Positions 9,471-15,050 of a DNA stretch of 36,823 bases are shown one piece after another. A program made the position numbers and the translations under genes. Below the pieces are notes generated by a model. That model saw only the letters and a list, made by a program, of their open reading frames with translations, did no database searches and was not told where the DNA came from. The first letter of the stretch is position 1; the number at the start of each line of letters is the position of its first letter. Source of the DNA: Candidatus Gastranaerophilales bacterium (GTDB lineage Bacteria > Cyanobacteriota > Vampirovibrionia > Gastranaerophilales > Gastranaerophilaceae); contig CALUVO010000087.1 of assembly GCA_944324245.1 (NCBI GenBank), positions 1 through 36,823 on the forward strand, in the 5' to 3' direction.

Positions 9471-11648
9471 ATGATGTTTTTCATTTCACTTTTGATGGTT
9501 TTTATATCTTCATATTTTATGGCCTGCGTTTTTTCACCGAAGGACGAAAATAATAACCCCAAAAGTGTTTATCCGTTTTTATATCTTCTTTTAATAATGT
9601 TTGCACAGGTTGTGCTTACTATGGAGATATTGTCTCTCTTCAGTTCAATAAAAGAAACAAATGTTCTCATAATGAACAGTTTATTTCTTATTGCAGGCAG
9701 TTTATTATGGTTTAAAAATAAAAAACCTTTATATATCCCTAAAATCAAAGAAACTTTTACTCAAATTTTAAAAGGATTAAAAAGAGATAAAATCCTTATG
9801 ATTATGGCATTCGGATTTGTATTCTTTATAATTACGGTAATTCTTCTTGACTTATTTTTACCTGTAAACGGAGCAGATGCTCTTACATACCATCTTAACA
9901 GGGCTTCTTACTGGATGTTTCAGGGGAATTTGAACCACTTTACGATTTCTGATGACAGAAACCTTGTTATGCCGATAAATTCAGAAATTTTATATTTATG
10001 GAATATACTGTTTTTCAAAAATGATATTGGTCTGTATTTCATAGCGTTTATCGGGTATATAGGTGTTATTTTCTCAATTTATAATATATTGCAGTATTTC
10101 GGATTTTCAGAACGCAGGAAATTATGGGCAATTTTTATACTTTCATCCTTTGCTTCTGTAATGGCACAGGTATCCAGCCTTGAGACAGATGTGTTGATAG
10201 CCGGTATTATCCTTGCAAGTATAACTTTATTCTTATATGCATTAAAAGACAAAAGCCACAGCGTGATTTATTTTTCATCACTGGCTTATGCTCTTGCAAT
10301 AGGAACAAAATCCCCTGCAGTAATAGCATTCCCCGGAGTGTTTCTGCTTCTTGCTTATTTTTCTTATAAAGATTTGAAAAAAGAATGCTACAAACCTCTT
10401 GTTTCGTTTCTTGCATTTCTGTTCATAAATTTTATGATTTTTTCAAGCTACAATTACATTTTGAATTTTATCGATTACGGAAGTTTTCTCGGAAGTGAAT
10501 CAGCCAGAGCCGTTCATGGATTTATGGGCGGTTACAAAGCTTTTATTGCAAACTATATACGATATATTTTTATGATGTTTGATTTTTCCGGATTTAAATA
10601 CAGTGAATATGTAGGTGAACACATAATAAATGCTAAACTTGCTATTTTTAGTTTCCTTCACATTCCGGAGGATTTAGGCGTATCCATGCCGGATAACAAC
10701 ATAATTAACAACAGATTTTTAAACGTAAAAGTAGGAACAGGTATTCTGGGATTTCTCGTACTTTTACCGGCTGTTGTGACTTCTGCGATTCTCGGCTTTA
10801 TCAGAAAGAACAGCAAAAAAATCACGGCAATGCAGGCTTTTGGCATTATGTTTTTTATAAATGTGGCTGCAATGTCAGGTGTTCTTGCTTATATGGTTTT
10901 CAGCATAAGATTTTTGACATTTCTCGTGCTTTTATCATGCCCTGTTCTTGCTCTGTCATACATTAGAAAAACAAATATCATAAAACTGCTTCTTTTATTT
11001 TTTGTAATGTCATACTTTTTAATTATGAGCGTCAATCTTTCTGGCAGACAGCACGGTGAAATTGCAAAGCTTATATTAAAAACGCCAACGCTTAACGATG
11101 CAAGAGAAACTCTAAGATGTGCTTTGTACACAGGTTATGAAGGGAAAAGACCGTTTTGTCATATCAAAGATTACATTAAAACAGACATTCCTAAAGGCTC
11201 TAAAATCGGAATTTTTGGCGATGCATCGGATGCTTCATACTTAACAAACATGTTGAATGCAAAAGGTTACAAGATAATTACGCTGCTTCCAGAAAAAGCA
11301 CCGACATATAATCTAAGCGATTTCGATTACCTTATAACAACTAATAAAATCTTAACAAGTACCGTTTTATTGACTGATACAAAAAATACAGAAATCAAAT
11401 ACCTGATAGATAAATCAGGAAGGGCTTATTATCCTAAATATAGGCCATTTTCATGTGTATACGAAGACGTTGATAAAGAATTTCATTACAAAGACAGAAA
11501 CAGCATCATCATGGATTCCAGATGCTTTATTGATGATCCTTTCTTTGAAAAAAGAAATTTTGTCTTGATAAAAGCATTTGATTTCGTTTCGGAAATGAGA
11601 GAATACACAAGATACGTGTCGGTTTATAAAAATAAAAAGAAAAGTTAG
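9471..11648 (+). CDS. Multi-pass membrane protein, GT-C/GT39-like glycosyltransferase candidate
   Basis: This 725-residue protein has roughly ten to twelve hydrophobic helices spread over residues 1-520 and a soluble C-terminal domain (about 530-725). After the third or fourth helix comes the loop NGADALTYHLNRASYW, whose acidic start and position resemble the catalytic first periplasmic loop of GT-C transferases (GT39/ArnT type), which use polyprenyl-phosphate sugars to modify lipids, glycans or proteins. The tail contains a segment reading GSKIGIFGDASDASYL that resembles a nucleotide-binding or sugar-binding turn, but I cannot name it. The ATG has an AAGGAG site. The gene stands alone, with a hairpin-rich non-coding stretch after its stop. 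Membrane nature is certain; glycosyl transfer is a family-style inference. Confidence 0.65.
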   Translation: MMFFISLLMVFISSYFMACVFSPKDENNNPKSVYPFLYLLLIMFAQVVLTMEILSLFSSIKETNVLIMNSLFLIAGSLLWFKNKKPLYIPKIKETFTQILKGLKRDKILMIMAFGFVFFIITVILLDLFLPVNGADALTYHLNRASYWMFQGNLNHFTISDDRNLVMPINSEILYLWNILFFKNDIGLYFIAFIGYIGVIFSIYNILQYFGFSERRKLWAIFILSSFASVMAQVSSLETDVLIAGIILASITLFLYALKDKSHSVIYFSSLAYALAIGTKSPAVIAFPGVFLLLAYFSYKDLKKECYKPLVSFLAFLFINFMIFSSYNYILNFIDYGSFLGSESARAVHGFMGGYKAFIANYIRYIFMMFDFSGFKYSEYVGEHIINAKLAIFSFLHIPEDLGVSMPDNNIINNRFLNVKVGTGILGFLVLLPAVVTSAILGFIRKNSKKITAMQAFGIMFFINVAAMSGVLAYMVFSIRFLTFLVLLSCPVLALSYIRKTNIIKLLLLFFVMSYFLIMSVNLSGRQHGEIAKLILKTPTLNDARETLRCALYTGYEGKRPFCHIKDYIKTDIPKGSKIGIFGDASDASYLTNMLNAKGYKIITLLPEKAPTYNLSDFDYLITTNKILTSTVLLTDTKNTEIKYLIDKSGRAYYPKYRPFSCVYEDVDKEFHYKDRNSIIMDSRCFIDDPFFEKRNFVLIKAFDFVSEMREYTRYVSVYKNKKKS

Positions 11649-11649
11649 A

Positions 11650-12010
11650 TTTTGGCGGACACGCCGTGGCTGAAAGCCCCAGTGTCCATGTGAACAAGGT
11701 AAACGAAATGGAAAATTTTTAGAATAAAAATTTGAAATGAAGTGCTTGACCTTGTGAACGCCAATAATCTAAGGCGGATTTTCGGACGGACGACACGACT
11801 GAAGGGAGTTAGTCCGGTGAGCGAGACACAAAATGAGCAAAAGCGATAGCGTAGCGAATGCCAGTGTTGAGCGGGAAGAAAATCCAAGAAGCGGATTTTG
11901 CGTAGAGTGAGGGCGAAGCCCGAAACTCGAAGTAACGCCGAAAAAGTGAGCGGATATTTTGTGAAAACAAAATTAAACGAACGGATTGAAGGCATGAAGC
12001 AATAATCCAA
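11650..12010 (+). other. Non-coding, hairpin-rich, GC-elevated element
   Basis: This stretch is clearly richer in G and C than its neighbours and holds no credible gene; a minus-strand frame across it lacks a ribosome site and has odd composition. Read on the plus strand it is a chain of hairpins: GGACAC (11657-11662) with GTGTCC (11682-11687) enclosing GGCT-GAA-AGCC (11668-11678); AAAATCC/GGATTTT (11879-11899); GGGC-GAA-GCCC (11911-11921); ATTTTGT-GAAA-ACAAAAT (11956-11973). The words TGAGC and GTAGCGAA recur, and are shared with 31728-31935. It may be a dispersed intergenic repeat or a large structured RNA. Confidence 0.6.
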
Positions 12011-12027
12011 GACCAGAAATCAGTTAA

Positions 12028-12150
12028 CAATATGAAATATTGACAGTACTTTTTGTCAAAAGTACAATCATAAAATAAAGGAAATAAGGTGAAAGTCCTT
12101 AGCTAAGCCGCAGCCGTACAGCCGGAATACTTTTAAAAGACCATTGCTTC
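12028..12150 (+). promoter_or_regulatory. Cobalamin-riboswitch-like RNA (compact)
   Basis: Several conserved pieces of the cobalamin aptamer appear in the right order. There is a P2-like hairpin (GTACTTTT/AAAAGTAC, 12046-12065), then AAAATAAAGGAAAT. Next comes the stem-loop AAGG-TGAAAGT-CCTT (12086-12100), close to the family's GGTGAAAATCC, then GCCGCAGCCGTA (12107-12118), matching the CCGCNRCYGT pattern, and AAAAGACC (12135-12142) at the B12-box position. CAAT (12028-12031) can close P1 with ATTG (12143-12146). The part between the core and the B12 box is very short, so this would be a reduced class, or a look-alike. It precedes the operon starting at 12238; there is no clear terminator, so control would be at translation. 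Confidence 0.5.
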
Positions 12151-12237
12151 GGGCATTAGGCATGGGACTATATTTTGTTAAAGATGGTATCCGTGTTTTT
12201 TGTCCGAAAGGAATTAAGAACAGGGATATTTTTTATA

Positions 12238-12951
12238 ATGACAGCATCGCTTTCAAGAGCTTCTCATAACAAAATAGGAACATGCCCTCACGGGCTGCCG
12301 ATGGGAGCATGTCCGATTTGTAACGGAATGGGCGGCGGTGCAGGAAGTGTAAAAAAAGATAATAAACCAAGAGAAATGACATACAATGAGTGTCTGGCGG
12401 TATGGCAGATGATGAAAGCGCAAAAAGCCGCTCACAAACAAACTATGCAGCTTTTTGCAGCACAGGATATGTCTGCTTATATGAACAAATTGCAAGAACA
12501 AATCAATGCAATGAAAATTGCAATACAAAATTCAGCCCTGCCCCGCCCCATAGCAAAAGCTTTTGTTCTTCTTGCCGATTCAGTACTTTTGCCTGCGGCA
12601 AAAGCTCTTCAAAATATATCAAATACAGTTCAAAATATAGCAAACAGTGTTGTCAAAACCTTAAACGAAATTAAACAAAAAATTATTGATATAGCAGATA
12701 AATTAACTGCATTGTTCGGAGAGACAAAAGCAGCAATTCAAAAGAAAATTGAAGAAAAATTTAAAGACATTAAAAAGAAAATTTTCAATCTTTTCGGGCT
12801 GGCAACAGCAGAGAATGAAGAAGACGAAGAAGCAAGAAGAATAGAAGAAGCAAAACAGTTATTTGAACTGAATACCGCAAAAGAAGCATTGTTTGAACTG
12901 CTGGAAAACCCCGAAAAAGAATCCCCGACAGAAGAAAGTGAAAAAGTATGA
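12238..12951 (+). CDS. Unknown helical protein with N-terminal Cys/His motif
   Basis: The 237-residue product starts MTASLSRASHNKIG and then has CPHGLPMGACPICNGMGGG, a compact set of three cysteines (about residues 16-29) plus histidines that looks metal-binding. A Gly-rich hinge follows. The rest is almost entirely amphipathic helix: residues about 95-175 are a long Ala/Ile/Asn-rich stretch, and the tail is acidic (EEDEEARRIEEAK, then PEKESPTEESEKV). No signal peptide is evident. I prefer ATG 12238 because the conserved-looking part begins there. In-frame ATG 12184 and TTG 12175 would add about 20 hydrophobic residues. The ribosome site is weak (CAGGGAT, 13 nt away), which fits translational control by the RNA upstream. 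Its stop overlaps the next start (ATGA). No known family recognised. Confidence 0.7.
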   Translation: MTASLSRASHNKIGTCPHGLPMGACPICNGMGGGAGSVKKDNKPREMTYNECLAVWQMMKAQKAAHKQTMQLFAAQDMSAYMNKLQEQINAMKIAIQNSALPRPIAKAFVLLADSVLLPAAKALQNISNTVQNIANSVVKTLNEIKQKIIDIADKLTALFGETKAAIQKKIEEKFKDIKKKIFNLFGLATAENEEDEEARRIEEAKQLFELNTAKEALFELLENPEKESPTEESEKV

Positions 12952-14447
12952 GCACCATAAATCCGTATCAAGATATAGAAACAAAAAGACAGTACAGAAA
13001 CCATACACAAACCCAGAAAAAAAATATTTCTGAAATGAAAGAGGGTGTGGTTGTAAATTCTCTGATAAAAGACCAGAACTGTCCGAATATAGAGAATATG
13101 TATGACAGTCTTGTTATACCTGACAAAACAACAAAACCTGACAGTTTTGAAAAGATAAACACTTTGCACAGGCAAAAAAAAGAAAAATCAACACACAAAT
13201 CACTGGTTCCTCTTTTGATTGCAACAACTGCACTGTTTGGTATTCTTGCAGGTTCTATGATGCTTCTTTCAAGAGCTGCAAAGCACAAAGCAACGCTTCC
13301 TGACTGGCAGACACTTCCTGAGATTCCAAAAAATGTGGCAATAAATAACGAGCCTCATTTTGTCACATACCTTATGATAAGAGACCCTAATATGAGAAAT
13401 GTTTTGGGTGCACTCGGCGTTTTTGTTTTAAGTGCAATAGGCCTTGCCGGCAAAAACTTTGTCGACGGTGTAAAAGAAATATGGGTAAGAAAAAAACAGG
13501 CTGATGTACAAAGAGACTTGCAGGAAAAACTTATCGAGGTGGAGACAAGAAGTTTTTCTGGAAAAATGCAGATTCTAAGAAACATGCTCTCAGAAAAAGC
13601 TAAGGAACTGGATACAATATTACATAAAGAAAATGTCGGCAATCAAAATACTACATTTAAAAAATTTATTTCTTTTAAACAAACAAAAGCAGATAACAGT
13701 AAAAATGAAAAAACAAACAAATTTTTAGGCTACACTGCAGTTGGGCTGACTTCAGCATTAATTACTGGTCTTGCTTTTATGGCATTTAAAAATGTACAAA
13801 AAACCGCAGGTATTTATGAAAAATACGCACAATCCATGGAAAACAAAATAAAAGAACTTATCGATAAACAGTCTGACTGGGATAGTGATTTGCTTGACAG
13901 AGTAAAGAAAATCTGTGTTTCAATGAACTTTTCAAAACAAAAAATTCAAAATATGTTGAAAGATGCAAAAAATCTGCCGTCAAATTTTGTAGATGATGTT
14001 ATAAAAGAAGCAGAAAAGGTTACGCAAGAAGGTGCAGAGGCAATAGCCGGCAAACCGGGTACAAAACCTTCTTTATATTCCCACACTGATGATGACAGAG
14101 CTCATCTTTATAATATGATTGTTAACTGGGAAAATCCGCTTCTTAAAATTCTTTTTACAGGTTTGTCAACTGTAACAGCAGTCGGATATGTCGGAACTGC
14201 TGCTGTTGAAGGAATTAAAGAAGCACAGGTTATAAAAGAAAACGCAAAAACAGAGCTGGATTTGCAAAACAGGCTTGTTAACGTAGAGCTTAATAATTTT
14301 GAATCTAAAAAGCGCAGTGTTGTTGAACCTATGATTAATGAATTTAGAATACAGGCAATGAACGGCAAGGACAAAAATGAACTCAAAACCCGTGCGGAAA
14401 ATATCCTTTACGAAATCAAAAACGGCCCGCCGTTTGTATACTCTTAA
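12948..14447 (+). CDS. Unknown membrane protein built from an internal duplication
   Basis: This 499-residue protein has an acidic/basic soluble head (1-84) and four likely membrane helices: about 86-109, 152-169, 258-281 and 398-417. Each of the two halves is a pair of helices followed by a coiled segment. The halves align: residues 167-225 (VDGVKE...ADVQRDLQEKLIEVE) match 415-475 (VEGIKE...AKTELDLQNRLVNVE), with shared G, KE, DLQ, L, VE and F positions. No enzyme motif is visible. The ATG overlaps the upstream stop by 4 nt, so translation is coupled. The next gene follows 18 nt later. It may form a membrane scaffold or pore-like assembly with its neighbours; that is inference. Confidence 0.75.
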   Translation: MSTINPYQDIETKRQYRNHTQTQKKNISEMKEGVVVNSLIKDQNCPNIENMYDSLVIPDKTTKPDSFEKINTLHRQKKEKSTHKSLVPLLIATTALFGILAGSMMLLSRAAKHKATLPDWQTLPEIPKNVAINNEPHFVTYLMIRDPNMRNVLGALGVFVLSAIGLAGKNFVDGVKEIWVRKKQADVQRDLQEKLIEVETRSFSGKMQILRNMLSEKAKELDTILHKENVGNQNTTFKKFISFKQTKADNSKNEKTNKFLGYTAVGLTSALITGLAFMAFKNVQKTAGIYEKYAQSMENKIKELIDKQSDWDSDLLDRVKKICVSMNFSKQKIQNMLKDAKNLPSNFVDDVIKEAEKVTQEGAEAIAGKPGTKPSLYSHTDDDRAHLYNMIVNWENPLLKILFTGLSTVTAVGYVGTAAVEGIKEAQVIKENAKTELDLQNRLVNVELNNFESKKRSVVEPMINEFRIQAMNGKDKNELKTRAENILYEIKNGPPFVYS

Positions 14448-14465
14448 AATTTTTAAGGAGATATT

Positions 14466-15050
14466 ATGTATACACAACCCGTTTCTATTATATTTAAACA
14501 GTTTCTTACACAAAATTTTGTCAATACTAAACAAAATAACAGTGAACCCTGCGAACTTGTCGGCAATTTTTGCAAAACTTTTGTATTACCGGATGAAAAA
14601 ACAAACCACGCCATATTTGATGAAAATCTTGCTGCAAAGATAGCTTCATACAAAGAAAAATCAATAAAACCTGTAATAGATATGTTAAATACAGCAAAAA
14701 AAGAGAGCGATATAACAGCAGGTTTGTTTTTGCTCAACCGTATCATAGATGCAGGTGCAAAGGGAGTAGAAAACACATACCCTGTAATATCAAAATTTAA
14801 TTACAATGAATCACACAATATACAGGTTATGCTCTCAGGTATATATAGAAAAACGCTTGTCCCTGACGGATTCGGCCCATTGATGACTATGTTTTTAAAA
14901 AACTCCGAACACCCGAAACAAATTCCATTTGACCCCAATGAAGAGATAGGCGGGGCTATACTTGCTTATCTTAACAATGACAAAAAAGCCTGTAACAATT
15001 TTACTCAGGAATTGAAAACAAAAGCTGCACTGAACAGTTATTCTATATAA
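14466..15050 (+). CDS. Unknown soluble helical protein, third gene of operon
   Basis: The 194-residue product has no signal peptide or membrane helix. Much of it (residues about 55-150) reads as alternating amphipathic helices of a HEAT/ARM-like kind (AAKIASYKEKSIKPVIDMLN; ITAGLFLLNRIIDAG), followed by GGAILAYLNN. AAGGAG stands 6 nt before the ATG, giving the best ribosome site in this operon. It lies 18 nt behind the 499-residue membrane protein and is very likely co-transcribed. Its stop touches the stop of the convergent sulfatase-like gene with no space and no hairpin between. Function unknown; a cytoplasmic adaptor for the membrane protein is a reasonable guess. Confidence 0.75.
   Translation: MYTQPVSIIFKQFLTQNFVNTKQNNSEPCELVGNFCKTFVLPDEKTNHAIFDENLAAKIASYKEKSIKPVIDMLNTAKKESDITAGLFLLNRIIDAGAKGVENTYPVISKFNYNESHNIQVMLSGIYRKTLVPDGFGPLMTMFLKNSEHPKQIPFDPNEEIGGAILAYLNNDKKACNNFTQELKTKAALNSYSI

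Follow-up and report, generated by a model that had tools for sequence, protein, structure and literature searches.

A cobalamin-clan riboswitch at the head of three undescribed gene families in Gastranaerophilales, a candidate operon for B12 acquisition

Introduction

The Gastranaerophilales are gut relatives of cyanobacteria and are non-photosynthetic. In one genome of this order a cobalamin-like RNA stands before three tightly linked genes of no known family, which raises the question of whether the RNA is a genuine riboswitch and, if so, what such genes would do under the control of vitamin B12. A riboswitch names the metabolite to which an uncharacterised gene responds, and since competition for B12 shapes gut communities, a new acquisition route, if true, would be widely interesting. 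No description of the operon was found in the open-access literature searched; Di Rienzi 2013 (PMC3787301) reports pathways for B2, B3, B7 and B9, with B5 in the gut types, and B12 is unmentioned there.

The window, by which we mean the whole stretch of 36,823 nucleotides that was analysed, is contig C87 of a genome of 2.04 Mb in 116 contigs that is 85% complete. The main comparison set contains 146 genomes of the same family, and genome-level tests of presence or absence consisted of family searches only. The reading favoured here is that positions 12040-15050 form a self-contained transcription unit that is switched off by cobalamin and serves, most likely, for cobalamin acquisition (probability roughly 0.5).

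The aptamer and its promoter

The aptamer is located at 12067-12139 on the forward strand, where a permissive Rfam scan of 701 nt gave a match to the AdoCbl-II model RF01689 of 28.8 bits (E 1.5e-4, or 1.1e-4 when searched genome-wide). As the gathering score of RF01689 is 36.5 bits, the window copy falls short of it and the default Rfam scan of the window returned zero matches. The class-I model RF00174, searched permissively, has a single match in the window genome, at this same site. The core segments GGAAA, GTGAAA..TC, GCCGCA.CCG and AGYCGGAA are all present in the window copy, in alignment columns that are mostly invariant or near-invariant, and the P5 helix carries one mismatch. R1, a covariance model made from 51 aligned copies of the aptamer, assigns the window copy 72.6 bits (E 6.5e-16, span 12059-12145) and its runner-up in the genome only 16.9 bits; since the window copy itself contributed a row to R1, this score is not independent. 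Independent support comes from unmodified Rfam matches above cut-off at the orthologous site in relatives. A match to Clostridiales-1 (RF01699) at 11800-11937 was dropped because its 19.5 bits fall short of the cut-off of 48.

A sigma-70-type promoter, TTGACA-N17-TACAAT, is found at 12040-12068 on the forward strand with 11 of 12 consensus matches. The first-pass annotation of this DNA had begun its aptamer with a P2 hairpin, GTACTTTTTGTCAAAAGTAC (about 12045-12064); this piece has to be withdrawn, as it lies between the -35 and -10 elements and, being promoter spacer, probably belongs neither to the transcript nor to the aptamer. Promoter-like sites with at least 10 matches lie directly 5' of the aptamer in 48% of 50 relatives, compared with 6% of shuffled controls. 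With a promoter immediately 5', transcription should set in shortly ahead of the aptamer.

Conservation and covariation of the RNA

RF01689 is matched in 135 of the 146 family genomes, above cut-off in 113, and most of the matches among those listed sit upstream of homologues of gene 1 (P0001). Such homologues are present in 127 of the 146 genomes. Among the matches listed, 106 of these 127 have an RF01689 match on the same strand 59-244 nt upstream (median about 100 nt), and R1, applied to the remaining 21 loci, found an upstream RNA in 20. The two models together place the RNA 5' of 126 of the 127 gene-1 homologues in the family, and it is kept at 13 of 14 homologous operons in the other families of the order. 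Retention of the RNA by homologues elsewhere, which the annotation had named as a check on its call, is thus the rule, and neither this check nor the search with cobalamin models, which match orthologous copies above cut-off, refuted the call.

The named helices are paired in 96.1% of cells across the 51 sequences, and 9 of 15 base pairs, in P1, P3, P4 and P5, show changes on both sides. Pairing score and percentage exceed those of 500 of 500 shuffles and of every slid version, the slid controls being far lower. Variation is greatest in P3, P4 and P1, and P5 shows three compensatory changes from U-A to C-G. As drawn, the structure has 49-71/50-70 crossing 62-74, so that one of the two helices may be misdrawn; the conclusion is unaffected by this.

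Directly downstream, a P13-like hairpin (12141-12165, forward strand) presents the loop CGGGCATT, a candidate kissing partner of loop L5, which reads TAAGCCGC in the window. Over 44 loci, the pairings of L5 with the downstream loop of the same locus outscore 500 of 500 shuffled pairings. A kissing interaction of 7 bp can be drawn in three relatives (L058, L103, L138), and only a short or bulged one in the window.

That the motif is no riboswitch and resembles one by chance would agree with the score of the window copy below the Rfam threshold and with its single-sequence fold, which is not unusually stable (z -1.05). Against this stand the orthologous matches above cut-off, the fixed position, the covariation and the fact that the same gene is headed by aptamers of two classes (see below), and on such comparative sequence data a chance resemblance appears already refuted, with a negligible probability left to it. 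The window RNA is almost certainly a cobalamin-clan riboswitch controlling the operon of genes 1-3, as the annotation had tentatively supposed, and would be expected to bind cobalamin.

The expression platform and a model of control

Between the P13-like hairpin and gene 1 a further hairpin is predicted by folding at 12186-12229 on the forward strand, and the same arrangement is seen in most relatives inspected. Its 3' arm in the window includes a Shine-Dalgarno-like AGGGAT (12222-12227), followed by a run of T and the ATG. In most sampled relatives the hairpin takes a form such as GTCCTCT...AGAGGAT-T5/6-AATG, in which the 3' arm is the Shine-Dalgarno sequence itself. The 5' arm complements the 5' strand of its own aptamer better than those of other genomes, to a degree that none of 300 shuffles reached, and this points to two pairings that exclude each other and to a switch that is off with cobalamin; in the window copy this complementarity is weak. 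A simple terminator scan found no site, so termination is just one option beside sequestration of the Shine-Dalgarno sequence.

From the RNA, promoter and hairpin established above at the level of sequence, the following course can be proposed. Transcription would start at the sigma-70-type promoter just before the compact AdoCbl-II-type aptamer. With cobalamin bound, the closing stem of the aptamer would form, probably together with the L5-L13 kissing loop, and the downstream hairpin would mask the Shine-Dalgarno sequence, terminate transcription ahead of the ATG, or do both. When cobalamin is scarce, the 5' arm of the hairpin would pair instead with the 5' strand of the aptamer and the operon would be expressed. 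Repression by cobalamin is therefore the presumed direction of control.

Proteins of the operon

The three genes are closely packed on the forward strand, genes 1 and 2 overlapping by 4 nt. In the other families of the order, genes 1 and 2 keep together at each of the 14 loci, some of which also have gene 3. Among 80 closer related loci gene 3 is almost always found, with 79 matches. The flanks of the operon vary from genus to genus. No convincing family was found for any of the three in Pfam, NCBIfam or PDB sequence searches, and weak low-complexity matches to DUF948, GP88, SctB and coiled-coil design constructs were discounted. As far as the libraries searched show, genes 1-3 are undescribed protein families, in keeping with their earlier description as tightly linked genes of no known family.

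Gene 1 (P0001, 237 amino acids) spans 12238-12951. Its start is most likely the ATG at 12238, in favour of which a mechanically assigned TTG at 12175 was set aside. An N-terminal CPHGLPMGACPIC motif is followed by long amphipathic helices, and the residues C16, H18, C25 and C28 are invariant in 51 aligned homologues, which had been selected for the CPHG part of the motif. Judged by its spacing, C-x-H-x6-C-x-x-C, it looks like a metal site.

Gene 2 (P0002, 499 amino acids) occupies 12948-14447 and is the conserved core of the operon. It was foreseen as a four-helix membrane protein, and four hydropathy peaks mark four predicted transmembrane (TM) segments at residues 89-107, 149-167, 262-280 and 398-416. 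The protein is internally duplicated, its halves matching each other with a blastp E of 2e-9 and with a probability of 96.6 in profile comparison. AlphaFold2 models it poorly (pLDDT 62), which makes the modelled fold uninformative on transport, and the PDB sequence search gave no convincing relative.

Gene 3 (P0003, 194 amino acids), at 14466-15050, is predicted to be soluble and, as the annotation had it, helical. Its AlphaFold2 model is good (pLDDT 87.7) and shows an ARM/HEAT-like arrangement; comparison with known structures by Foldseek and VIA-align recovers this arrangement only in its generic form (best Z 13.2, no E under 0.001). The predicted form is suggestive of protein-protein contact only.

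The invariant Cys/His motif of gene 1, together with cobalamin control of the operon, could also be taken to mean that the products remodel, store or deliver corrinoids inside the cell, as chaperone or store, without importing them. The motif resembles a CxHx6CxxC metal site, however, and a corrinoid-binding or remodelling domain was not found in genes 1-3, so that an intracellular role of this kind is improbable.

On the same strand, 5' of the operon, a gene at 9471-11648 encodes a putative glycosyltransferase of 725 amino acids (weak PMT_2 match); a few closely related genomes have related genes beside the operon, and the rest of the sample does not. The GC-richer intergenic stretch that follows it (11640-12030) is a dispersed non-coding repeat of the group: pieces of it recur in the close relatives L005, L155 and L243 at 75-83% identity, with several copies in L005.

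Cobalamin link of related genes

The link of the operon to B12, which the annotation had put forward conditionally, gains from the context of related genes. Sister family f3, which belongs to the same order, has the pair of genes 1 and 2 headed at six loci by RF00174 aptamers above cut-off. A profile search beyond the order picked up two distant homologues of gene 2, which come from further families of the same class. Both match the C-terminal repeat and one clearly the N-terminal repeat as well; reversed sequences, searched as a control, gave zero matches. Each homologue has a riboswitch above cut-off directly upstream, RF00174 (35.9 bits) at L254 and RF01689 (37.9 bits) at L255. A further match of the gene-2 profile, in G257, was judged false, as it lies in an ORF of 640 amino acids whose start resembles a protein kinase. 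The change of aptamer class in f3 and the riboswitches at the two distant homologues strengthen the cobalamin link. That related genes in several lineages are headed by aptamers of two different classes speaks for cobalamin control as part of what these genes do.

Paralogous copies of the aptamer in the family head nrdD together with an nrdG-like gene, and also a btuB-btuCDF-like operon consisting of a TonB-dependent receptor, a FecCD permease, an ATPase and a periplasmic binding protein. The gene nrdD encodes the B12-independent (anaerobic) ribonucleotide reductase, and both nrdD and btuB-btuCDF are classic cobalamin targets.

B12 requirement and the function of the operon

The window genome encodes NrdJ (TIGR02504, 732 bits), the B12-dependent ribonucleotide reductase, and has no match to PF02607, the MetH-type B12-binding cap domain, or to PF02310. 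Importers were sought in 38 family genomes: BtuC/FecCD (PF01032) was found in 6 and not in the other 32, the window genome among them, and EcfT/CbiQ (PF02361) in none. Most NrdJ genomes thus appear to be without a BtuC-type or ECF-type inner-membrane importer, in a search that was confined to these two importer components and that included MAGs, whose gaps can mimic absence.

NrdJ is found in 16 of 22 genomes with P0001 as against 4 of 16 without it (Fisher p 0.008, with no correction for kinship). All five sampled genomes of genus g26 (G026, G061, G088, G110, G130) have neither riboswitch nor P0001 nor NrdJ above cut-off, an apparent loss of the B12-linked set. Genus g18 has no P0001, and BtuC occurs in three of its four genomes searched. 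Four genomes possess NrdJ without P0001, three of them less than 90% complete (G079, G091, G109) and one 99% complete (G080). Conversely, P0001 and the riboswitch occur without NrdJ or MetH above cut-off in G009, G021, G024, G029, G049 and G084, in which PF02310 matches are present.

With NrdJ encoded, no BtuC or ECF importer detected, and a membrane-protein operon under the sole switch of this type found in the genome, the operon is an obvious candidate for acquisition of the vitamin. The corrinoid uptake that the annotation gave as an example would fit with genomes that encode NrdJ and have neither BtuC nor ECF transporters. The products, a duplicated four-helix membrane protein, an amphipathic helical protein with a Cys/His motif and an ARM/HEAT-like adaptor, would then take up cobalamin or handle scavenged corrinoids in bacteria that require B12 and are without these importers; that B12 acquisition is the function of the operon can be rated at close to an even chance.

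A role in sparing B12 or in B12 shortage, other than uptake, would equally accept the riboswitch as real, the products serving perhaps as a membrane scaffold or as a substitute for a B12-dependent step, as nrdD is for nrdJ in the same regulon. The aptamer copies that head nrdD, a B12-independent alternative, point in this direction, as do the long-helix membrane protein, the ARM/HEAT adaptor and the amphipathic helices, which resemble a scaffold more than a carrier, and the occurrence of P0001 in genomes without NrdJ or MetH. No enzyme-like domain is found in genes 1-3, however, and under such a role the NrdJ genomes would be left without a detected known inner-membrane B12 importer; we regard it as rather unlikely. 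Acquisition is preferred, and in its most specific form, offered tentatively and at somewhat under even odds, it would make genes 1-3, with gene 2 as core, a new cobalamin acquisition system that is unrelated to BtuCDF and ECF and supplies NrdJ in Gastranaerophilales, the relatives of gene 2 acting likewise in other families of the class.

Comparison with known systems

The window RNA shares core sequence, helix layout, size and leader position with AdoCbl-II (RF01689, clan CL00101). It differs in that the window copy scores below cut-off and in that its target genes are without known function, rather than known transport, synthesis or isozyme genes. Class-I Cobalamin RNAs (RF00174) head the same two-gene core in f3 and one distant gene-2 homologue, whereas the copies in the family of the window are of the compact AdoCbl-II type. 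BtuB/BtuCDF is likewise a membrane-protein operon with like riboswitch control in the same bacterial family, but genes 1-3 have no sequence relation to it and contain no TonB receptor, BtuC domain (PF01032), ATPase or periplasmic binding protein. ECF-type transporters (EcfAAT with CbrT) are also vitamin-linked membrane-protein modules; gene 2, with its internal duplication and its long cytoplasm-like helices, does not resemble an ECF S component, and EcfT is found in 0 of the 38 genomes.

The riboswitch ties three unannotated protein families, near-universal in a common uncultured gut order, to vitamin B12. With NrdJ and no BtuC or ECF importer in most genomes tested, the source of B12 becomes a testable question for which candidate genes are named, and the operon is a candidate for a new route to the vitamin in bacteria that mostly lack the importers tested for.

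Other riboswitch loci of the family

A further cobalamin-linked locus is found in genome G012, where an AdoCbl-II riboswitch above cut-off (L073, positions 457-534) heads proteins of 94 (575-859) and 160 amino acids (974-1456), neither of which is in a Pfam family. At L064, L065, L083 and others, in many genera of the family, a cobalamin riboswitch lies 5' of nrdD, followed by the nrdG-like gene; here B12 probably decides whether the class II or the class III reductase is used.
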